Source: Ruminococcus sp.
GTDB taxonomy: Bacteria; Bacillota; Clostridia; Oscillospirales; Ruminococcaceae
Reading direction: 5' to 3'
Length of the DNA stretch: 35,052 nucleotides
Assembly (NCBI GenBank): GCA_017450925.1
Contig: JAFSSS010000055.1
Span: 1-35,052 of the forward strand
The notes under the pieces: generated by a model
What the model saw: the letters and a program-made list of their open reading frames with translations, nothing else
What the model was told of the DNA's origin: nothing
Databases searched by the model: none
Translations under genes and position numbers: made by a program
Part shown: positions 1-35,052 of the stretch, piece after piece
How positions within the stretch are numbered: position 1 is the stretch's first letter
Layout: each line of letters begins with the position of its first letter

Positions 1-143
1 GCACATCATCTGCTTGCCAGCTTTCCGTCATATTACCCAAATTCTCCTTGACTTGCGTCAGCAAGCCTGCGTCGAATTTAGGCAATCTGACGAAAAGCTG
101 GACGGCGCAGCTGATGCACAGGGGTCGTGCGGTGTTGCCTTAA
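1..143 (-). repeat. MITE-like foldback element, copy 1 (cut by window start)
   Basis: Positions 1-139 are the reverse complement of the first 139 bases of copy 3 (19452-19590), with only three differences found by eye. The right end is the terminal inverted repeat GGTGTTGCC at 131-139, followed by TTAA at 140-143, the presumed half of a target duplication. The other terminus lies outside the window, about 33 bases away if the copy has the same length as copy 3. No reading frame of its own is visible. Bases 144-211 hold nothing recognisable. Confidence 0.85.
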
Positions 144-7707: not shown

Positions 7708-7736
7708 TTGAAATATCCGAGGATGTATGTTATAAT
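7708..7736 (+). promoter_or_regulatory. Promoter for the secreted beta-lactamase-fold gene
   Basis: TTGAAA (7708-7713), a 17-base spacer and TATAAT (7731-7736). The start near 7743 leaves a leader of about 80 bases before the ATG at 7825, which argues against the longer frame beginning at 7708. Confidence 0.75.
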
Positions 7737-7824
7737 CCTATACGAGAAAGCAGATGACATCTTTTCTTCCGTTGTCAGACGTCATATATTGCCTGCACTG
7801 CATAAATATGAAAGGAGCTTTGAT

Positions 7825-9756
7825 ATGAACGGCAAAAGTAAATTATGTCTGACCTTGATCGGAGTTATAGCCGCAGCCGCTGTATTGGCGGCACCCAAGT
7901 CCTTTGCGTATGCTGATGCATATAAGGCAGAGGCCTCTGAAATCCTGCCCGGCAGCACACAGGATGATCTCCCTGCAGAAGAACCGGCGGAGCCCATATC
8001 CATTGAAAATGCAAGCATTATACTGAACACTGCAGCCTTCAGCTACACAGGAAAAGAAATCAAGCCCGGGCTTATCACTGTAAAGCAGGATAACAAGGTG
8101 CTTGAAAAGGATAAGGACTATACTGTGAGCTATGAAAACAATGTAAAAACAGGATATATGACAGCGGCGGTAAAGATAACAGGCATCGGCGATTACACAT
8201 CCGAAGCCTGTAAGTATTTTTCTATAGCCCCCGAGGTAAAGGAGATCGCTGCACTTTCCACCTCCAACGACTCTGTCAGAGTCAGCTGGGAGGAGGATGA
8301 AAACGCACTTGCTTACCAGATCCTTTATTCCACCGCAAGCGATTTTTCCTCCAATGTTCACAGCACTACCGTAAAGGGCAGGGTTTATGTGAACCTAAGC
8401 AATATCCCCGCGGCCGGAGAGCGCTGGTATATAAAGATACGTTCCTTTATAACGGATACAGGAGAAGTAACCGGGAAAAGGATAGGCACCTACGGTCAGA
8501 TCCGCTCCATAGTTGTAAAGGACAATATCCGATCTGTCACTATCCCCTACTGCTCCTATACATACACCGGCAGTCAGATCAAGCCGACGGTCAAGGTCAA
8601 GGGAACAAACGGAGTGCTTCTTAAAGAGGGAACAGATTATACACTCGCCTATTCTCCAAATATAAATGTAGGTTCTGCCGCTATAGCCGTTATCGGCAAG
8701 GGAAAGATACAGGGGACTTATATCAAGAAATTCATAATCAAGCCCAAGAAAAACGCCTTGACTGCGCTTTATTCCGATAAAAAAGGAACCTTTACGGCTT
8801 CATGGAAGGCCGACAGCACAGCTACAGGCTATCAGGTGATGTATTCCACCGATCCTGATTTTGAAAAGGATGTACACACCTATTCCTCCTCCCGGACTAC
8901 AGAGACCTTTTCAAGATATGCCGAGGCCGGCAAGACCTATTATGTAAAGGTCCGTTCCTATCTTGCGGCCAACGGGACAAGATACGGGAATTACAGCCCT
9001 GTAAAGAAAATCACTGCGATGAGCAGGGATATAAGCGTTCTTAGAGACAGACTTGCAAACGCTATAAACAGCTATCCCGGCAGCTGGTCTGTATATGTAA
9101 AAAATCTTCGCACTGATGAAACTGCAGAAGTCAACAGCCACCGTACATACTATGCTGCGAGCCTTATGAAGCTCTACTGTATGGCTGCTACCTATGACGC
9201 TATTGAAAAGGGAAGGATAGCCGAGACCGCTACAGTTCAGCTCTATCTAAGACAGATGATAACAGTGAGCAGCAACGATGCTTTTAATCAGCTTCTCAGG
9301 ATAATCGGAAAAACAGCAGTAAGAGACTGGATAATTAAAAACGGATATTCCGAAACTGCACAGTTCCACGGATACAGCGAGGGCTCCTACTATTACTGGA
9401 CTATCATCGAGTCGAACAGAAGTAATTATACATCGGCGGCTGATTGTGCCAAGTTCTTTGAGTCGGTGTATAAGGGGACCTGTGTTTCCAAAACAGCATC
9501 GCAGAAGATGTTGAATCTGCTTAAAGCACAGCAGGTAAAATACAAGGCTCCGGCAGCAATACCCAGTTGGGTGCAGACAGCCAATAAGACCGGCGAGGTA
9601 GCCGACAACACCCACGACTGTATGCTGGTATTCTTAGAGGGTGATCCTTATATCATAAGCGTTATGTCTGAAATCAAAGGCGCAGGGTGGTCTTATGCTT
9701 ACCACGTTACAGATCTGTCAAGGATAACCTATAACTATTTCAGCTTGAATAAATAG
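7825..9756 (+). CDS. Secreted class A beta-lactamase-fold serine hydrolase with MBG/FN3-like repeats
   Basis: A 643-residue exported protein. A signal peptide (KSKLCLTLIG then AAAAVLAA) occupies about residues 1-30. Then come two pairs of modules: an MBG/Big-like domain (about 50-130, starting at FSYTGKEIKP), an FN3-like domain (137-230), a second MBG-like domain (233-305, YTYTGSQIKP) and a second FN3-like domain (308-398). The C-terminal domain (about 400-640) has all three penicillin-recognising motifs: S446-L-M-K449, S482-S-N484 and K588-T-G590. AAAGGAG lies before the ATG. The domain belongs to the class A beta-lactamase-related hydrolases. The modular front suggests attachment to the cell surface or a polymer, so a cell-wall role is as likely as antibiotic hydrolysis. 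No LPXTG or dockerin is seen. Confidence 0.85.
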   Translation: MNGKSKLCLTLIGVIAAAAVLAAPKSFAYADAYKAEASEILPGSTQDDLPAEEPAEPISIENASIILNTAAFSYTGKEIKPGLITVKQDNKVLEKDKDYTVSYENNVKTGYMTAAVKITGIGDYTSEACKYFSIAPEVKEIAALSTSNDSVRVSWEEDENALAYQILYSTASDFSSNVHSTTVKGRVYVNLSNIPAAGERWYIKIRSFITDTGEVTGKRIGTYGQIRSIVVKDNIRSVTIPYCSYTYTGSQIKPTVKVKGTNGVLLKEGTDYTLAYSPNINVGSAAIAVIGKGKIQGTYIKKFIIKPKKNALTALYSDKKGTFTASWKADSTATGYQVMYSTDPDFEKDVHTYSSSRTTETFSRYAEAGKTYYVKVRSYLAANGTRYGNYSPVKKITAMSRDISVLRDRLANAINSYPGSWSVYVKNLRTDETAEVNSHRTYYAASLMKLYCMAATYDAIEKGRIAETATVQLYLRQMITVSSNDAFNQLLRIIGKTAVRDWIIKNGYSETAQFHGYSEGSYYYWTIIESNRSNYTSAADCAKFFESVYKGTCVSKTASQKMLNLLKAQQVKYKAPAAIPSWVQTANKTGEVADNTHDCMLVFLEGDPYIISVMSEIKGAGWSYAYHVTDLSRITYNYFSLNK

Positions 9757-9826: not shown

Positions 9827-10811
9827 ATCTGCTTGACCTTACAAGCTCCTTTGAAAAATATTTCTCTCCGTTAAATTCTACATATCCCACCTTTCCAAGT
9901 CTGTAAAGACCGTCCTCTGTAAAGCCTGTCAAAATATCTGTTCTGCACTCTCCGTCAGTATAATACACAGAGAAGTTAAAGCCCTCGCTCTCCTCGGCTC
10001 TGCGGTTTTCATACAGGCAGACCTCGGATAAATATATCTCATCGCCGCTCTTGCTCTGCAGAATAAGCGTGTCAAAATTCGATGCCGTCGGCAGTTCAAA
10101 GCTCATTCCCTCAAATATCCCCGCGCCTTGCTCTTTGAAATATGTTTTCAGCTGACCGCATTCGACCCGTACTTTATCATCAGCGCCCAAATTGCTTTTG
10201 TTTATCCCGAAGGTGAATACGGCTTCCGATTCATTGCCCTTTTTGCCGAACATATTGTCAGAGGTCGAGTTGAAGCCCGTCAGCCTTTCCCCCGACTGCG
10301 AATAAGCGATCATATAGGGGATGAACTGGTCAAAATCACCGTCCACCCTTTCAAAGTAATCGGCGATCTCCGAAGCTGTCATTTTCTTTACCTCCTCGGG
10401 TAAGATAAGATTATCCGATATAAACCCCTTTCCCTCATCGTCAAGCCCTTCGAGTGTGGCAGTGCAGCGAATGTATATCTCATCGGAAATGACAGTATCA
10501 ACTGTCATTCGCAGGTGGCTGTTCTCACAGACTATCGGCTCGCCGGTGCGCTTTTCAAGCTCGGCTAAAAGCTCGGTATTCCCGTTGTATTCATGCAGGG
10601 CGTTTTCCTTGTGCGGGATAAAGCGGCTTATCACAGCCGCTGCCCCTATGCCGAGCGCAGAGGTCATCAAGGCTGCTGCGGCTATTACAGCTGCCAGCCT
10701 GCCAAGCCTTATTTTCCGCTTTGGCAGGGTGTCGGTATCGGCCTCTGAAACAAGCGAGCTGTCTATCCCGCCGAGTGCATCCAGCAAGGCAAATTCTCTT
10801 TCTCTGCTCAT
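9825..10811 (-). CDS. Membrane anti-sigma-like protein (DUF4179-like)
   Basis: A 328-residue bitopic membrane protein. Residues 1-33 are a short cytoplasmic segment (REREFALLDALGGIDSSLV). The single membrane segment is about 35-58 (RLAAVIAAAALMTSALGIGA), and the remaining 265 residues are extracytoplasmic. The layout and the four-base ATGA overlap with the ECF sigma gene (10808-10811) match the clostridial DUF4179 anti-sigma proteins. The inferred job is to hold the sigma factor at the membrane until an outside signal is sensed. No zinc-binding HxxxCxxC anti-sigma motif is present. Specific family membership is judged from layout more than sequence. Confidence 0.7.
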   Translation of the reverse strand: MSREREFALLDALGGIDSSLVSEADTDTLPKRKIRLGRLAAVIAAAALMTSALGIGAAAVISRFIPHKENALHEYNGNTELLAELEKRTGEPIVCENSHLRMTVDTVISDEIYIRCTATLEGLDDEGKGFISDNLILPEEVKKMTASEIADYFERVDGDFDQFIPYMIAYSQSGERLTGFNSTSDNMFGKKGNESEAVFTFGINKSNLGADDKVRVECGQLKTYFKEQGAGIFEGMSFELPTASNFDTLILQSKSGDEIYLSEVCLYENRRAEESEGFNFSVYYTDGECRTDILTGFTEDGLYRLGKVGYVEFNGEKYFSKELVRSSR

Positions 10812-11365
10812 ATAAGCCCCTCCTTTGAAAGCTGCTGCTTCAGCTTTTTTCGCATTCGCATAAGCGTTACCGTTATATAGCTCTCCGTCAGATCAAATCT
10901 CTCGGAGAGCTGTTTTATGCTGTCAAAATAATAGTACCGCCTTACAAACAGGATCCGCTTGTCCCTTGGCTGGGAGTGCAAAAAGCGGTTTATCGCATCT
11001 GTGATCGCCTGCCCGTCAAGTCTGCTTTCGATCCCTTTATCATCGGGCAGCAGCTCGGCTGTCTCGTCAAGTGTCTGCGTCATCCGCTCGCTCTGCCGTT
11101 TGTATGAAAGTCGTTTTCTGTATATGTCAAGCGAGATATTCCGCACTATAACAGTAAGATATGCCCCGAGGCTCTTTGGCTTTTGAGGCGGGATAGTGTT
11201 CCATGCACGCATAAGCGTGTCGTTTACAGCCTCCTCGCTGTCCTCGCTGTTTTCAAGTATATTAAAGGCGATGCGCTCGCACACAGCACCGTATTTTTTT
11301 TGAGTCTCCTTGACAGCGTTTTCGCTGCGCTCAAAGAACAGCGTGATAATATCCGTATCTTCCAT
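10808..11365 (-). CDS. ECF-type sigma-70 family RNA polymerase sigma factor
   Basis: A 185-residue ECF sigma factor with only regions 2 and 4. Region 2 runs from about residue 20 to 85 (ILENSEDSEEAVNDTLMRAW, then YLTVIVRNISLDIYRKR). Region 4 is near 125-180, with the helix-turn-helix FDSIKQLSERFDLTESYITV followed by TLMRMRKKLKQQL. AGGTGG precedes the ATG at 11365. Translation is coupled to the anti-sigma-like gene. Its own promoter region contains a bipartite ECF-like element that is repeated, inverted, in front of the divergent lipoprotein/ABC operon. Confidence 0.92.
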   Translation of the reverse strand: MEDTDIITLFFERSENAVKETQKKYGAVCERIAFNILENSEDSEEAVNDTLMRAWNTIPPQKPKSLGAYLTVIVRNISLDIYRKRLSYKRQSERMTQTLDETAELLPDDKGIESRLDGQAITDAINRFLHSQPRDKRILFVRRYYYFDSIKQLSERFDLTESYITVTLMRMRKKLKQQLSKEGLI

Positions 11366-11386
11366 ATATTCACCACCTATTATTAT

Positions 11387-11453
11387 TGACGTAAGATCAA
11401 GTCATTACACTACAAATATTTTTTGTGTAGTGTGCAGCCGCGGTTTTACGTCA
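11387..11453. promoter_or_regulatory. Divergent pair of identical ECF-type promoters
   Basis: Rightward: TGTAGTGT (11426-11433), 12 bases, TTACGTCA (11446-11453). Leftward: the same two octamers with the same 12-base gap (11407-11414 and 11387-11394 on the minus strand). CGTC is the classic -10 core of ECF sigma factors. TGTAGT to CGTC is 17 bases, a normal ECF spacer. The leftward start would fall about 14 bases before the sigma ATG, the rightward about 28 bases before the lipoprotein ATG. The inner octamers also form an 8-base stem. Both sides are probably driven by the adjacent sigma factor. Confidence 0.8.
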
Positions 11454-11488
11454 GTATATACAGAACAGATCATCCGGGAGGGATAGTA

Positions 11489-12664
11489 ATGAAAAGGCTT
11501 ATAACCATACTTTCAGCAACCTTGACCCTGCTGACAGCCTGTGCGGAAAATGCAGACAGCGGGTATGTTGATGTGAGCAGGGCGGAACAGCAGTACAGTG
11601 CGGCACAGTCAGAACCGCCTGCCGAGGAGCTTTTGCTTGATGATAGGGCAAAGGTCTTTTTGCAAACGGGGTATTCTCTGTCCTCGACACAGCTTGCAAT
11701 ATTTGAAACCAACAGCCGCAGGCTTGTTGATCTTAACACTGGTGTAATAAGCTCCTTCTGCGATATTCCGGGCTGTCCTCACGATGACACGGCGACAGAC
11801 ACCTGCCTTGAATATCAGCCGATAAACAGTCCGCATTTTGCCAACGGAGGAATGTATTACACAAAATACTTTTCGCCCGGCAAGCTGTTTTTCAGATCCA
11901 ACGGCGAAGAAAGGCCGGTCTTTGAAAACACCTTTTACACCGACAAGGAGGCCGAGCTCGAACCCGATGCCAAAACCGGCTGCGGATTTTTTATCCGTGG
12001 GGAAACGTTATATGTTACAGGAATGACCTATTTCTACACCGTCGATATAGGCACAATGAAGCAGAGCTGCGAGCCTGTCATCATATCGGAAAGCCCTATA
12101 TGGAACGCCGATATCAGCGGCGATATGTTCTATGTCACAAATGAAAATTTAGAGCTTATCAGCTATGATATGAAAAGCGGTGAGCTTAAAAAGCTTGCCG
12201 ACAAGGTATGGCGCATACAGGCCTGTGACGATAGCCTTTATTACATAAAAACCGATGATGGCAATAACTCTGTTTTTAAGAGTGACCCTGACGGGAGCAA
12301 TGAGAAAAAGCTTGTCTCCGATACCGAGCTTTCAATGTATGTGACCGATAAATACATTTACTATCTGACGGCTGACGGCTTGTATAGCAGCGACTTATCG
12401 GGCGGAAACGCTAAGAAGATAAGCCTTGAACTCACCTACGAAAATAACGAGCAATATGTCACAAGGGACTTCGGCACAGTGCAGCTTATCTCCTGCCCGT
12501 CATCAAGGTTTATCTACCTGCTTGACTACACTAAAAGTACAGGCGATAAATGCTATAATGCACTTTTCAGGATAGACAAGGAAACAAATGAGGTCAGTGC
12601 CACAAGTCTTGGTATCTGGTATCAGCCGGAAGGCGGCGGCAAGGAAGAAATACTTTCATATTGA
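11489..12664 (+). CDS. Beta-propeller-like lipoprotein (DUF5050-like) with Cys/His motif
   Basis: A 391-residue lipoprotein with signal MKRLITILSATLTLLTAC and cleavage before the Cys of LTAC. The body has repeating blade-like segments (LISYDMKSGELKKLADKVW, DSLYYIKTDDG, FKSDPDGSNEKKLVSD, KYIYYLTADGLYSSDLSG), as in DUF5050/Tricorn-like propellers. Near residue 90 is a C-x4-C-x-H-x7-C arrangement (CDIPGCPHDDTATDTC) common in clostridial propeller lipoproteins and possibly a metal or disulfide site. GGGAGG precedes the ATG; the frame open upstream to 11423 would begin before the predicted transcript start. First gene of the operon under the rightward ECF-type promoter, so it is a candidate sensor or substrate-binding part of the ABC system. 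Confidence 0.75.
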   Translation: MKRLITILSATLTLLTACAENADSGYVDVSRAEQQYSAAQSEPPAEELLLDDRAKVFLQTGYSLSSTQLAIFETNSRRLVDLNTGVISSFCDIPGCPHDDTATDTCLEYQPINSPHFANGGMYYTKYFSPGKLFFRSNGEERPVFENTFYTDKEAELEPDAKTGCGFFIRGETLYVTGMTYFYTVDIGTMKQSCEPVIISESPIWNADISGDMFYVTNENLELISYDMKSGELKKLADKVWRIQACDDSLYYIKTDDGNNSVFKSDPDGSNEKKLVSDTELSMYVTDKYIYYLTADGLYSSDLSGGNAKKISLELTYENNEQYVTRDFGTVQLISCPSSRFIYLLDYTKSTGDKCYNALFRIDKETNEVSATSLGIWYQPEGGGKEEILSY

Positions 12665-12675
12665 GGATTAGAAAG

Positions 12676-13734
12676 ATGAATAAAAGAATAACGCTGATAT
12701 ATCTGCTTCTGATAATAAGTGTACTACTATGTGGATGCACAGATAATGCCGCATCAGATAATAGCTCAGAGATCGAGGTTTTGGAAAAATTGACATCAGC
12801 TTCTGATAATAATGAATCTGATAATGAATCATTTGATTTTTTTGTTGCTATGAATTTAAGTAAATTAAATGCTGATAACAGTACAGGTGAACCGTTGGGA
12901 TTTAAATATGAAATAGATGACGGTTTAGTTAGTATTGTACTTGAAACTACAGTGTCACCGGACAGCAGTATACAATCAGATAAGCTTCCGGTAAGGGTTT
13001 GGCTTATATGCGATAATAAATTATTACCGTTTTCACTTGACGGGGGCGAATTCAAAGAAACCAACGAATATGATGAAAGTGAGGGATATTCTCATATTAT
13101 CAGCTTTAACGGAAACAAGGATATGAGATTTGTAACAGTAGTAATATCTGCATTGCCCGATCATATCCCGGAGCTTAAGCTCGGCTTGTATACCGGGATC
13201 TGTACATATACGTTTGTAAACACAAGTTCAAATTCGCTTGACATTATTCCTGACACTATTGATGAGAATAATTATCTTATGACACCCGCAATTATCCGCA
13301 GAGGCTGTTTTGATTTTGATAAATCGTCATTCGAAAATGATTCCGAGGCTCACTTTCAGTTTTATGAGGACTTTATCCTAAAAGAAAATGATAATATGTA
13401 CATTAAAATCAACCGCGATCAGGTCAATGATGAGCAAGAACCATTGGGAATATATTATAGCTTGTTAACTATATGCGACGGAGAAATAATACCTGTCTTT
13501 AACGGAAACAAAACAATTATAGTCCACACCCCTTTTACAAGTGAATTAAAAGCCTGTGATAAGACATTTGAATATGCTATCCCTTCCACATTTCTTAAAT
13601 CCAAAGGAATGCACATATTACAAGCTGTTGCCGTACCTTATTATATTCCGAATGCTTTAGATAATATAAAAAACAACACATCATATGGCTATAATGGTTC
13701 AAGCACTAACAAAACCAGAGTTGTTAAAGAATGA
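12676..13734 (+). CDS. Lipoprotein of unknown function, AT-rich
   Basis: A 352-residue lipoprotein. Its signal is KRITLIYLLLIISVLLCGC, cleaved before the second Cys, followed by a Ser/Asn/Asp-rich linker. No domain is recognised in the remainder, which is rich in beta-prone sequence and has two similar-looking halves (PLGFKYEIDDGLVSIVLE and EPLGIYYSLLTICDGEIIPV). The gene is clearly richer in A+T at third positions than its neighbours, which hints at separate acquisition. ATG at 12676 after GAGG; it starts 11 bases after the previous stop. GTG start of the permease follows after 13 bases. Confidence 0.7.
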   Translation: MNKRITLIYLLLIISVLLCGCTDNAASDNSSEIEVLEKLTSASDNNESDNESFDFFVAMNLSKLNADNSTGEPLGFKYEIDDGLVSIVLETTVSPDSSIQSDKLPVRVWLICDNKLLPFSLDGGEFKETNEYDESEGYSHIISFNGNKDMRFVTVVISALPDHIPELKLGLYTGICTYTFVNTSSNSLDIIPDTIDENNYLMTPAIIRRGCFDFDKSSFENDSEAHFQFYEDFILKENDNMYIKINRDQVNDEQEPLGIYYSLLTICDGEIIPVFNGNKTIIVHTPFTSELKACDKTFEYAIPSTFLKSKGMHILQAVAVPYYIPNALDNIKNNTSYGYNGSSTNKTRVVKE

Positions 13735-13747
13735 GGTGAGCCATTAA

Positions 13748-14947
13748 GTGAAATACGAATACAAAAAGCTTTTCTCCTCAAAGCTGATGCTTATTATGCT
13801 TGCACTTACTTTTGCATACATGGTATATCTGCCGGTGCGTGAGGTCTGGGGCGGAATAGAGGAAAACCGCAAAACAGTTGATGCCTATGAGAATATTATA
13901 GCAAAAGCGCAGGCAGATAACAAGACCTACGGCGAGCTTTACGAGGAAATAAACGATATCTTCGCAAACGGTGAGGCTAAGCCTATATACAGTGACAACG
14001 CTGTAAACGATGTGGGCGGTATAATGTTTGCGGCCGACAAGCTGCAATATGTGACGACCGGCTTTGAGGCTGACAGAAAAGAGCTTGTAAAGGGAATGAT
14101 CTATCAGAACGTCACCGAGCAGCAAAAGGAAAGCCCCGACAAATATCTTATCAGAGCGAACGAGAAAGCAATATCGCAGTACAACCGCAGGATAGAGCTT
14201 GAATTTGAAAACACCGGAATAAACAGCTCGGGCTATTATTCGTCTTTCAATTATTCAATGTGGGAGTATGTGATGATAGCCCTCTGCGTTATGATGACGG
14301 TGCGGCTTTTCACACTTGAATACACCACCTCCGCATACCGTCTTGTCAACACAAGCAAACGCACGGTGCAGAGCTTGTTTTTCAAAAAGTATCTTGCAGT
14401 TTTAAGCATTGCCGCACTTGTGCTTTTAATCCAGGCGGTTTTTGAAATAGCTTTCGGGATCTATGCCTACGGTGCTAAGAATTTCAGCCTGCCCCTGCAG
14501 CAGATAGCCGAGTTTGAATACTGCCCATACATACTCAGCATAGCGGGATTTTATGTGATAAAATATTTTGTAAGGCTTATCTGCTATACGGCTGTTATCT
14601 CGGTAACAGCGCTGATCGCTGTTTTGATAAAGCGTCCGCTGATCGTGAACATCACAGCTATCATCATTTCGGCAGGCGGGCTGGCGGCAAATATGGCGCT
14701 CTTCGTTGCAATAGACAAAAGTGAAAAGAGCAGGTCGGCGCTTATTTCTGTTTATGACCGTCTGCGCATCTTCCTGCCGCAGAGTCTGCTGAACTTAAGG
14801 GAATACCTCAAGGGCTTTGACTGCTTTTCGCTGTTCGGTTTCCCTTGCAGCAGGATAGTGTTCTGTATTGCTTTGGCGGTCATCATATCGGCAGCCTGCG
14901 CTGTGCTTGGATATATCCAAAGCGGGAAGATAAGGAGGGCGGCATAA
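13748..14947 (+). CDS. ABC-2-type permease-like membrane protein A
   Basis: A 399-residue membrane protein with one N-terminal membrane helix (about 11-30), an extracytoplasmic stretch of about 140 residues, then five helices (about 174-195, 215-245, 255-295, 300-325 and 375-395). This 1+5 layout is typical of ABC-2 permeases of lantibiotic-immunity and exporter type. GTG start after GAGGTGA. The stop overlaps the ATPase ATG by one base. It is very likely a half-transporter partner of permease B (15809-16846), which has the same layout. Confidence 0.8.
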   Translation: MKYEYKKLFSSKLMLIMLALTFAYMVYLPVREVWGGIEENRKTVDAYENIIAKAQADNKTYGELYEEINDIFANGEAKPIYSDNAVNDVGGIMFAADKLQYVTTGFEADRKELVKGMIYQNVTEQQKESPDKYLIRANEKAISQYNRRIELEFENTGINSSGYYSSFNYSMWEYVMIALCVMMTVRLFTLEYTTSAYRLVNTSKRTVQSLFFKKYLAVLSIAALVLLIQAVFEIAFGIYAYGAKNFSLPLQQIAEFEYCPYILSIAGFYVIKYFVRLICYTAVISVTALIAVLIKRPLIVNITAIIISAGGLAANMALFVAIDKSEKSRSALISVYDRLRIFLPQSLLNLREYLKGFDCFSLFGFPCSRIVFCIALAVIISAACAVLGYIQSGKIRRAA

Positions 14948-15816
14948 TGGAGCTTGAATTTAAAAATGTCTGCAAAAGCTATAGGTCAAAGCAGGCGCTT
15001 ACAGATTTTTCGGTAATACTGCAAGAGGGCGTTCATGCTCTGCTCGGCCCCAACGGAGCAGGCAAATCAACGCTTATGAATATCCTTGCAGGTCTGCTTA
15101 AACAGACCTCGGGCGGTGTGACCCTTGACGGTGCAGACACCGACAAAATGGGCGCGGCCTTTCGTGAGATACTCGGCTTTATGCCGCAGGAGCTTGGCTT
15201 TTACAAGAGCTTTTCGGCTGTTGAAACGCTTGAATACTATGCTGCTCTGCGTGATGTGAAGGACAGTAAAAAGCGCATAGACGAGCTGCTGACACTTGTT
15301 AATTTGCAAGAGGATAAAAAGCGCAAAGTCGGCGGTTACAGCGGCGGGATGAAACGTCGGCTCGGCATTGCTCTTGCCCTGCTCAACGACCCGAAAATAC
15401 TTATCCTTGACGAGCCCACGGCAGGGCTTGACCCAAAGGAGAGAATGCGCTTTCGCAATGTTATCTCGCAGGTGGGCTTCGGCAGGATAGTCATTCTTGC
15501 CACGCATATCGTTTCCGATGTGGAGAGCATCAGCGATGACTGCCTGCTGCTCAAAGAAGGGCGGCTGATAGACAAGGGCAGCCCCGACGAGCTTTGTGCA
15601 AAGGTCGAGGGCAAGGTCTGGGATATCCCAATGACCGAACAGCAGGCGGAGAGCTATCTGCTGACACACAGCTGCGCCAACATCATCAAGCGTGAGGGCG
15701 GTGTTTTTGTGCATACGGTGTCGGATGAAAAGCCCGACAAAAATGCAAGCCATGCAAAGGCAGGGCTTGAAGATGTTTACATGAACTATTTTGGCGAAGT
15801 GACGGAAAATGCTTAG
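14947..15816 (+). CDS. ABC transporter ATP-binding protein
   Basis: A 289-residue nucleotide-binding subunit. Walker A GPNGAGKST near residue 39, Q-loop GFMPQELGFYKSFSA, signature YSGGMKRRLGIALAL, Walker B ILILDEPTAGLDP and the switch histidine in ATHIVSD are all present. The 60-residue C-terminal tail is as expected for exporters of the CcmA/NatA type. It lies between two permease genes with overlapping stops and starts, so the three form one transporter. The start at 14947 gives the normal N-terminus (MELEFKNVCKSY). Confidence 0.95.
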   Translation: MELEFKNVCKSYRSKQALTDFSVILQEGVHALLGPNGAGKSTLMNILAGLLKQTSGGVTLDGADTDKMGAAFREILGFMPQELGFYKSFSAVETLEYYAALRDVKDSKKRIDELLTLVNLQEDKKRKVGGYSGGMKRRLGIALALLNDPKILILDEPTAGLDPKERMRFRNVISQVGFGRIVILATHIVSDVESISDDCLLLKEGRLIDKGSPDELCAKVEGKVWDIPMTEQQAESYLLTHSCANIIKREGGVFVHTVSDEKPDKNASHAKAGLEDVYMNYFGEVTENA

Positions 15817-16846
15817 GATATTTTTCACGGAGCTTAAAAAGCTTATAAGGATAAACCGCCTGCCGCTTGTCATTCTGCTGGCGGTCGCTGTAAGGGCGGT
15901 GCTGTGCATTCTGCCGTCGGTGCATGAACACCCCTATTCCGATGAAGTCTATAAAAGCTGCACCGCACAGCTTGAGGGTAGGCTTACAGCTGAAAAGACA
16001 GAGTATCTGAATTCCCGCCTTGCCGAGATAGACCGGCTTATCGCCGCTTATGATGAAATGCAGCAAAGATACACGGCCGGAGAGGTCACCCTTGATGAAT
16101 ATTCAGCCTATACCGAACGGCACGGAAAAGCAAAGGCGGAGGAAAGCACGGTGCGTTATCTTTGCCGCAAATGCAAGGCACTTGACGGCTGTACTGATTT
16201 TGACAAGCAGATCTTCTGTGACACCGCATGGAGCGATCTTTTTGAGGACAACGGCTTTGACTGTGTAATGCTTATCGCACTTTTGTGTATTGCTGTCCCT
16301 GCTTTTGATAACGAGTATTCGTCGGGGAGCTTCAAGCAGCTTCTCACCTCAAAGCGAGGAAAAGCACAGCTTGCAGTTTCAAAGCTTGCGGCGGTCTGGG
16401 TGACAGTGCTTGTGCTTTCCTGTCTGATGAACGCTGTCAGACTCGGCATATTTGCATATCACAACGGGCTGACCTACAGTGATATGCCTGTCGGGAATAT
16501 CCTGCTGACTGACGGCTTCGGTGATACCTCTCTGATAGGATATTATCTAAAAGACACGATCATCAAGTCTCTGATATGGGCGATGTATGCCTGTCTTTTC
16601 AGCCTTATCGCAGTGCTTTTTAAAAATGTTGCCTTTGCGGTATTGGCAGGGTTTATTATTGGGATAACGCCGCCGATGATCTCGTCGGGAGCAGGAGGTG
16701 AGAATGCCGTTTATTTTATAAGCGGCCTGCAGCTTGCGAAGATGTACGCAGCGTCTGTTGAGCTGTGGCTGCTTGCGGGGATAATACTTTTAAAGGGTGT
16801 CTTATTTTCAGCAGCAGCTTCAAAGGTCTGGAGCAAAAAAGCATAA
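15809..16846 (+). CDS. ABC-2-type permease-like membrane protein B with Cys-rich outer loop
   Basis: A 345-residue membrane protein with a helix at about 18-38, an extracytoplasmic region of about 110 residues, then five helices. The outer loop contains four cysteines at 119, 122, 128 and 137 (CRKCKALDGC...FC), suited to disulfides or metal binding, followed by helices starting at about 152. It overlaps the ATPase gene by 8 bases. Last gene of the ECF-linked operon. The exported substrate is unknown; membrane stress or peptide export is a reasonable guess only. Confidence 0.8.
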   Translation: MLRIFFTELKKLIRINRLPLVILLAVAVRAVLCILPSVHEHPYSDEVYKSCTAQLEGRLTAEKTEYLNSRLAEIDRLIAAYDEMQQRYTAGEVTLDEYSAYTERHGKAKAEESTVRYLCRKCKALDGCTDFDKQIFCDTAWSDLFEDNGFDCVMLIALLCIAVPAFDNEYSSGSFKQLLTSKRGKAQLAVSKLAAVWVTVLVLSCLMNAVRLGIFAYHNGLTYSDMPVGNILLTDGFGDTSLIGYYLKDTIIKSLIWAMYACLFSLIAVLFKNVAFAVLAGFIIGITPPMISSGAGGENAVYFISGLQLAKMYAASVELWLLAGIILLKGVLFSAAASKVWSKKA

Positions 16847-16861
16847 GAGTTATTCAGCATT

Positions 16862-16948
16862 TTAAGGCAACACCGCACGACCCCTGTGCCTCAACGCCAG
16901 TTGAGGTTGCACATACTGATGCACAGGGGTCGTGCGGTGTTGCCTTAA
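16862..16948. repeat. MITE-like foldback element, copy 2 (short form)
   Basis: A 79-base element (16866-16944) with perfect 24-base terminal inverted repeats (16866-16889 and 16921-16944). It is flanked by TTAA on both sides (16862-16865, 16945-16948). The interior has a CCTCAAC-gcca-GTTGAGG hairpin also found, inverted, in copy 4. Compared with copy 4 it looks like an internal deletion form. It starts 15 bases after the permease B stop, and its hairpin, followed by T/A-rich sequence, may end that operon's transcript. Confidence 0.85.
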
Positions 16949-19447: not shown

Positions 19448-19627
19448 TATAGGCAACACCGCACGACCCCTGTGCATCAGATGCGCCGTCCAGCTTTTCG
19501 TCAGATTGCCTAAATTCGACGCGGGCTTGCTGACGCAAGTCAAGGAGAATTTGGGTAATATGACGGAAAGTTGGCAAGCAGATGATGTGCAGAGGCGTTA
19601 GCCGCGGGTCGTGCGGTGTTGCCTATA
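19448..19627 (+). repeat. MITE-like foldback element, copy 3 (complete)
   Basis: A complete 172-base element (19452-19623) with 18-base perfect termini and TATA on each side (19448-19451, 19624-19627). The whole element is an imperfect palindrome. The arms fold together through CCAGCTTTTCGTCA and TGACGGAAAGTTGG and through ATTGCCTAAATTC and GAATTTGGGTAAT. The apex is CTTGC-tgac-GCAAG. It sits between the nusA-leader terminator and the nusA start codon. Confidence 0.9.
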
Positions 19628-34764: not shown

Positions 34765-34845
34765 TTGAAAGAGATCACAAACGGAGATATCCCCGACAGA
34801 AAAGCTCTGCTCTGCTTAAGCAGAAACAGAAAAAAGTATTTTTAA
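34765..34845 (+). CDS. Possible 26-residue small ORF ending at repeat copy 4
   Basis: TTG-initiated frame (first residues MKEITNGDIPDRKALLCLSR) with AAAGGAGCGG just upstream and a strong promoter at 34703-34731. Its TAA stop is made by the TTAA target of the repeat. Because a target duplication would leave one TTAA in the ancestral site, the stop may be original, but a gene interrupted by the insertion is also possible. No family recognised. Confidence 0.35.
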   Translation: MKEITNGDIPDRKALLCLSRNRKKYF

Positions 34846-35052
34846 GGCAACACCGCACGCCCCCTGTGCATCAGTATGCGCAGCCTCAACTGGCGTTGAG
34901 GCACAGATTTCCGTCAGATTGCCTAAATTCGACGCAGGCTTGCGAGCGAAGTGTGCTTCGCTTTGCGCAACGTCAAGGAGAATTGACGTCATCTTTGATG
35001 ACGTTGGTGATCATGACGGATAAGCCGGTCGTCAAGCAGGCTTGACACGGCA
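34842..35052 (+). repeat. MITE-like foldback element, copy 4 (long form, cut by window end)
   Basis: TTAA (34842-34845) is followed by the same terminus as the other copies (GGCAACACCGCACG at 34846-34859). It carries the CCTCAAC-tggc-GTTGAGG hairpin of copy 2, the ATTGCCTAAATTCGACGC block of copies 1 and 3, and extra hairpins (GCGAAG-tgtg-CTTCGC and TGACGTCATC...GATGACGT). The second terminus is outside the window, so the element is longer than 207 bases. Confidence 0.85.

Follow-up and report, generated by a model that had tools for sequence, protein, structure and literature searches.

Between an ECF sigma factor gene and a divergent lipoprotein/ABC operon, a contig of Ruminococcus sp. carries the same bipartite sequence twice, once facing each gene. 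This raises the question of whether the two copies are promoters and, if so, which sigma factor reads them and how far its control reaches beyond the locus. A sequence-only reading of the contig had proposed that the sigma factor drives its own gene and the operon from them. The contig (35,052 nucleotides, all of it analyzed and referred to below as the window) was compared with related genomes, and the comparison of orthologous loci supported this proposal and did not refute it. Judged from these sequences, the two units very probably serve as back-to-back promoters of the neighboring ECF sigma factor, which would be autoregulated and would also drive the divergent lipoprotein/ABC-exporter operon.

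Putative Promoter Units and Genes of the Window

The pattern TGTAGTGT-N12-TTACGTCA is present twice, back to back, in the window (Table 1), while none is expected from 100 dinucleotide shuffles of the window. Each unit is 28 bases long and their inner ends are separated by 11 bases. The sequence-only reading had described two octamer pairs exactly 12 bases apart, one facing each gene, with a -35 to -10 distance of 17 and a placement at promoter distance from both start codons, and all of this was confirmed: TGTAGT and CGTC are 17 bases apart, and the unit ends 21 bases before the start codon on the sigma side and 35 bases before that of the lipoprotein on the operon side. A scan for sigma-70 promoters gave no match wholly within 11366-11488. 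One weak match (9/12; 11343-11370, plus strand) points toward the lipoprotein and spans the start of the sigma gene; sigma-70-like matches in the scanned region numbered 22, against 13.3 (sd 4.6) in shuffles. The 11 bases between the two -35 boxes (11415-11425) compare with 40-250 in relatives, and with so short a gap two polymerases may not fit together, so that the promoters of the window could compete.

Table 1. Features of the sigma/operon locus in the window.
Feature	Position	Strand	Basis or content
Sigma-facing promoter unit	11387-11414	-	TGTAGTGT-AATGACTTGATC-TTACGTCA; -35 TGTAGTG, -10 CGTC
Unit facing lipoprotein/ABC operon	11426-11453	+	TGTAGTGT-GCAGCCGCGGTT-TTACGTCA
ECF sigma factor, 185 aa	10808-11365	-	Pfam Sigma70_r2 and TIGR02937
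Probable membrane anti-sigma factor, 328 aa	9825-10811	-	Second gene of sigma operon; weak DUF4179 match
DUF5050 lipoprotein (lipoprotein 1)	11489-12664	+	Pfam PF16472, 56.8 bits, cut-off 27; signal peptide ends LTAC (by eye)
Second lipoprotein (lipoprotein 2)	12676-13734	+	Signal peptide ends LCGC (by eye); without Pfam family
Membrane protein, probable ABC permease 1	13748-14947	+	Hydrophobic sequence; without Pfam family
ABC ATPase, 289 aa	14947-15816	+	Pfam ABC_tran, 109.1 bits (longer frame 14845-15816)
ABC-2 type permease 2	15809-16846	+	Pfam ABC2_membrane_4, 29.6 bits, cut-off 27
Central control segment	10549-11636 (borders approximate)		Strongly diverged in G308; flanking genes 80-95% identical

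The sigma factor matches PF04542 (37.1 bits, cut-off 24) and TIGR02937 (66.3 bits, cut-off 42.9) over residues 18-179, and it is a small protein with regions 2 and 4 alone, as an ECF sigma factor should be; the nearest solved sequence, an ECF SigL (E 4.9e-4), adds nothing specific. The anti-sigma gene overlaps the sigma gene by 4 bases, and order and overlap fit co-transcription. Its product has a hydrophobic segment followed by A-x-A (by eye), and A-x-A-like residues are aligned among the homologues. Its DUF4179 score of 17.4 bits lies below the gathering threshold of 30.1, and the same family matches 9/10 of the aligned homologues at E ≤0.1 (best 1.1e-4). A search of PDB with the anti-sigma profile returned chance matches and nothing more. 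On the operon side, the solved sequences nearest to the ATPase are ABCA-type transporters, which again adds nothing specific, and the Pfam search found no family for lipoprotein 2, permease 1 or an extra secreted protein of the G308 locus (see below). Among the loci seen, the window and G308 have lipoprotein 2, and a contig of RGIG2923 opens with the last bases of this gene (positions 1-70), making RGIG2923 a third genome with the two-lipoprotein form; the sigma half was not found for RGIG2923, whose genome gave no anti-sigma match.

Two features of the surroundings may be recorded here. A gene for a 682-aa Beta-lactamase2-domain protein (7708-9756, plus strand) is convergent to the anti-sigma gene and ends just behind it, a neighborhood that is not common to G308. 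The repeat AAGGCAACACCGCACGACCCCTGTGC has five matches with ≤1 mismatch in the window (116-141, 16864-16946, 19450-19475, and 34844-34869), two of which form an inverted pair directly behind the ABC operon; similar sequence was seen by eye before the sigma genes of G006, G174, G014, and G001 and at the lipoprotein-side contig break of G006.

Conservation of the Unit in Relatives

Of 120 relatives, 16 of which belong to the genus, the lipoprotein had matches in 16, with clear orthologues in G012 (48%) and G006 (45%) and shorter or weaker matches of 26-35% in the remainder. Within the 16 genomes of the genus, orthologues of the sigma factor (52-56%) occur in G012, G006, and G013. When the permease alignment was used to scan 84,980 species genomes, 10 named loci were obtained. 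They belong to the Ruminococcus sp. MAGs RUG13257 (G308), RUG13311, RUG13226, RGIG4809 (G012; roe deer reticulum), RGIG6795 (G006; sheep rumen), RGIG2923 (goat omasum), and U.8_1, and to two further records named Clostridiales bacterium, one being RUG060 with two loci (G381).

The unit with its N12 spacing stands on both sides in all six of the other loci that could be seen in full, which come from five MAGs (G012, the two copies of G381, RUG13311, RUG13226, and G308). In G012 the sigma and lipoprotein genes are divergent, with TGTAGTGT-N12-CTGCGTCA before sigma and TGTAATGC-N12-ATGCGTCA, 3 positions off the pattern, on the lipoprotein side. The partial loci carry the unit in the halves that are seen: in G006 the two halves lie at two contig starts, each with a unit and with repeat-element sequence (by eye) at both contig breaks, and in G013 the sigma half with its unit lies at a contig start and the operon is not detectable. 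In total, the unit precedes the sigma gene in 9/9 TGTAGT-type sigma loci. The gap between paired units is 40, 41, 44 or 250 bases in relatives, and the spacing within the unit is always N12. G381, of a different genus, holds the whole system twice, with sigma factors 76% identical and a promoter pair for each; one of these pairs is the one 250 bases apart, with hairpin-like sequence between. A distant homologous operon (L127; lipoprotein 32%) is without the unit and has by eye a TTGACA-17-TATTAT promoter, and it has no sigma or anti-sigma match within 21 kb and no anti-sigma match in the genome.

Across 17 sites (14 distinct), TGTA, T6, T22, and CGTCA do not vary, while G occupies position 7 in 12/14 and T occupies position 19 in 13/14 distinct sites; three of the loci (L122, L123, and L124) are near-identical, so that these counts are not independent. 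The claim that CGTC is the ECF -10 core agrees with the constancy of CGTCA in 14/14 distinct sites, an invariance that is partly built in as the motif was used to choose them. From the end of the unit to the start codon there are 20-24 bases at 14/17 sites (35, 47, and 88 at the others), and such short leaders, together with the -10 CGTC, fit ECF promoters. Conservation of the octamers along with the genes had been proposed as one test by which the promoter reading could be refuted. The unit, its N12 spacing, its orientation and its promoter distance are indeed kept on both sides. The octamers as exact sequences are not, and what remains constant in them is the core TGTA-T and T-CGTCA.

Search for a Regulon

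A genome search for further members of the regulon, suggested by the sequence-only reading, was carried out at several levels of stringency. The exact 16-base pattern is found in none of the other 119 of 120 genomes, and the 2.03 Mb window assembly has no exact copies beyond the window's two; a form degenerate in the -10 octamer (YTR) recovers the relatives. As TGTAGTGT-N12-YTRCGTCA it has 8 matches in 6 of 396 genomes of the family, against 1 for the reversed pattern. Six of the 8 lie directly before orthologous sigma or lipoprotein genes (window 2, G006 1, G013 1, G381 2) and two inside coding genes. Matches in G396, G403, and contig C44 of G013 lie inside coding genes and were dismissed as chance. 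The relaxed pattern TGTARTG-N11-T-N2-TRCGTCA, with ≤1 mismatch, has 18 sites in the 8 carrier genomes, 17 at the sigma/operon locus and 1 inside a coding gene, against 5 matches of its reversed control; the pattern was built from the locus sites, and the informative part of this result is the absence of others. Because 17/18 of these sites are at the one locus, the regulon appears to be private, its predicted extent being the locus itself, and members could be missing as the window assembly is 66.6% complete. Allowing ≤2 mismatches yielded 29 matches (7 of them with 0-1 mismatch) in 13/16 genomes of the genus compared with 85 for the reversed pattern. Two-mismatch matches are thus at chance level, and the two extra hits on contigs C49 and C54 of the window genome are not counted as regulon members.

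Searching the genus for ECF sigma genes turned up 40 matches, spread over 10/16 genomes; 4 of these matches belong to the subgroup of the window. When 30 regions upstream of ECF genes were inspected by eye, the unit was seen in those 4 alone; two others were shortened by contig ends. The ECF paralogues (L054-L079) show other recurring upstream motifs by eye, e.g., GGTAGTATATAAGTGAA and GCGTGTATATAGGTGAAGCGCTTC, and this suggests several promoter classes within one genus. Related sigma genes of G174 and G432 (49%) are preceded by TGTAACGC-N12-ATGCGTCA. Since these two fall in the same 11-row clade of the sigma tree (support 99/95), TGTAGTG may derive from a TGTAAC box.

Alternative Readings of the Promoter Pair

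Taken together, the two units of the window make up a 31-base inverted repeat (71% complementarity, 11-base center), as would be expected if the mirrored octamers were an operator for a dimeric repressor or activator instead of two sigma promoters. Against this, the gap between the copies ranges from 11 to 250 bases while the spacing inside the unit stays at 12, which argues for two separate promoters and no single palindromic operator; single units moreover keep their direction and their distance to the start codon, and among the window genes searched for it is the sigma factor, the anti-sigma factor and the operon alone that are kept together. The palindromic operator was rejected on the varying gap and is very improbable. 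Only slightly more credible is that one promoter or both are read by a different ECF sigma factor of the same cell, with the neighboring sigma gene as just one of its targets. Two further ECF paralogues were matched in the window assembly and cross-recognition is possible. Yet of the seven 0-1 mismatch matches in the 16 genomes, 6 are at orthologous loci and 1 is inside a coding gene, none precedes other listed sigma paralogues, and the paralogues' own upstream regions, by eye, have other motifs. Reading by the neighboring sigma factor is therefore preferred, and the points that count against it are the lack of AAC in the -35 box, the sub-threshold DUF4179 score of the anti-sigma factor, the undetectable operon of G013, the operon-side unit of G012 that departs at 3 positions, and the weak sigma-70-like match facing the lipoprotein.

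A Mosaic Locus in Another Genus

G308 belongs to another genus than the window, and its locus aligns with the window over 9841-16860, with no alignable sequence found outside. The effector genes are close (permease 1 91%, ATPase 95%, lipoprotein 2 89%, and permease 2 81% protein identity), as are residues 121-391 of lipoprotein 1 (90%) and 89-328 of the anti-sigma factor (80%). The sigma factor on the other hand is 48% identical, anti-sigma residues 1-62 are 34% and lipoprotein 1 residues 1-48 are 23% identical, the stretches between being intermediate. DNA identity accordingly is ~80% over 9841-10560, ~55% over 10561-11640, and ~88% over 11641-16860. The diverged control segment contains the anti-sigma N-terminus and membrane segment, the sigma gene, both promoters and the lipoprotein signal peptide. 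In the other 27 pairs among 8 loci the identity of sigma tracks that of the effectors, and three pairs with ATPases 94-96% identical have sigma factors 95-98% identical. Identical fourfold sites number 10/33 in sigma plus anti-sigma 1-62 vs. 486/672 in the pooled flanking genes, a pool that left out anti-sigma 63-88 and lipoprotein 1-120 (Fisher 1.3e-6). Both G308 promoters read TGTAGTA for TGTAGTG, the identical single change on each side. G308 carries one gene more, located between operon promoter and lipoprotein gene, and its product of 147 aa looks secreted (L120, 3617-4060).

It is reasonably likely, from these comparisons, that one exchangeable cassette comprises both promoters together with the sigma gene and the sigma-binding half of its anti-sigma factor, and that in G308 it was replaced by the cassette of an AT-rich donor. 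We read the replacement as having taken place in the G308 lineage, with the window keeping the native form; the join would lie, approximately, just behind the membrane segment of the anti-sigma factor, in a sensor-plus-exporter locus that is otherwise conserved. Coevolution of ECF sigma factors and anti-sigma domains is reported in the accessible part of the literature (PMC7406223). A less likely explanation, to be taken seriously all the same, is that the mosaic is an assembly error or reflects mere fast change in the control segment, with no replacement. Both loci are MAG contigs and this is the single such pair found; the tree of sigma factors is compatible with a sister relationship of window and G308 (p-AU 0.44); and a donor search with the G308 sigma protein in 396 genomes found nothing closer than 49%, the sigma factor of G012, outside that sample, being 52% identical to it. 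In genus g150 (7 genomes) a close anti-sigma factor is found in G308 alone (70%), those of G174 and G432 being at 38-39%. Assembly error is made less likely, however, by anti-sigma and lipoprotein frames that are open across both joins, and both promoters are in place. The fourfold-site contrast is not explained by amino-acid selection alone. The G308 sigma gene also has a GC content of 30.6% against 41.8% in its operon, whereas in the window and 5 other loci the two lie within 3 points of each other; lipoprotein 2 is AT-rich in both window and G308, and low GC alone is thus no proof of foreign origin.

Comparison with Known Systems

Neither ECF promoters under autoregulation nor divergent pairs are new in kind (PMC3817407; PMC8103513). 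ECF sigma factors usually autoregulate, as described in the part of PMC3817407 available, and the regions upstream of their own genes have served to find their promoters; the autoregulated share is given as ~55% in the corresponding part of PMC8103513, which also relates that an early definition of ECF sigma factors included a -35 AAC in the promoter and was afterwards narrowed to the two domains. The window locus shares with these systems, as outlined there, the two-domain sigma factor, the adjacent gene for a probable membrane anti-sigma factor, and a unit before the sigma gene with CGTC at -10. It differs in a -35 TGTAGTG without AAC (both sites read TGTAGTGT), in the second copy that faces a divergent operon, and in an apparent one-locus regulon. 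The arrangement is ordinary in kind, save for the -35 box without the usual AAC.

Three further systems are close. The EcfG general stress locus of alphaproteobacteria likewise has a sigma operon and a divergent unit under promoters of the same regulon, but, in the account as far as accessible, the divergent gene there is the regulator PhyR and the activation mechanism is another (PMC8103513), while in the window the divergent genes encode an ABC exporter and lipoproteins. The Bacillus pairs SigV/RsiV and SigP/RsiP (ECF30 with DUF4179 anti-sigma factors; PMC6066255; PMC8844934), which respond to lysozyme or beta-lactams, have in common with the window a Firmicute ECF sigma factor and a membrane anti-sigma factor, that of the window weakly resembling DUF4179 and having A-x-A-like residues (by eye) behind the membrane segment; as differences, the anti-sigma factor of the window scores below the DUF4179 cut-off and its sigma factor far below the cut-offs of the listed SigW/SigM-type models. 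Tt-RpoE1 of Thermoanaerobacter tengcongensis reads its own promoter, with CGTC at -13 to -10, and the N-terminus of its anti-sigma factor binds the sigma factor; that anti-sigma factor is TolB-like, and the available portion of the account has no divergent ABC operon (PMC3397946). Transferring the position of CGTC in Tt-RpoE1 to the window, start sites are predicted near 11378 (minus strand) and 11462 (plus strand).

For the operon, curated immunity families give a further comparison. In LanFEG and LanI lantibiotic immunity systems a single operon encodes a lipoprotein, two membrane proteins and an ATPase. The window operon matches this gene content, permease 1 by its hydrophobic sequence alone, and its ATPase resembles TIGR03740, but the scores for the curated immunity families are far below their cut-offs (TIGR03740, 175 bits against 309.75; TIGR03733, 21.4 against 117.2; for the ATPase, among the best 25 of 192 families).

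Proposed Mechanism and Meaning

From the sequences we infer sigma recognition, feedback, a proteolytic signal and the role of the exporter as follows. As long as the cell is at rest, the sigma factor would stay bound to the membrane anti-sigma factor. An outside signal would release it, probably by cleavage of the anti-sigma factor behind the membrane segment and perhaps at the A-x-A-like site, as RsiV is described in the available text (PMC6066255). Free sigma factor would then transcribe its own operon, which is positive feedback and to which the proposed label of a self-amplifying switch would apply, as well as the divergent operon, which encodes an ABC exporter along with one or two lipoproteins. 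The probable task of the exporter is to shield the envelope from a peptide or similar agent; such a role in defence is a guess, made because the ATPase resembles a lantibiotic-protection model, at a score far below its cut-off.

Among the matches listed in the open-licence literature (titles and abstract starts), there was no account of this sigma group, of its -35 box or of a one-locus regulon, and, within the same scope, none of a natural replacement of a sigma cassette like that of G308; for all four the claim to novelty is a weak one.

For one group of ECF sigma factors of the Ruminococcus type, the locus yields a specific candidate promoter, TGTAGTG-N11-T-N2-TRCGTCA. The pair of window and G308 would amount to a natural experiment that shows which components of such a circuit have to travel together, with the sigma factor moving along with its target promoters and the inner half of the anti-sigma factor while sensor and effector stay. 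If this is true, the parts are a candidate orthogonal set of sigma factor, anti-sigma factor and promoter for circuit design, with the exchange as nature's own cassette swap, and the pair shows how bacteria could rewire sigma circuits without breaking them.
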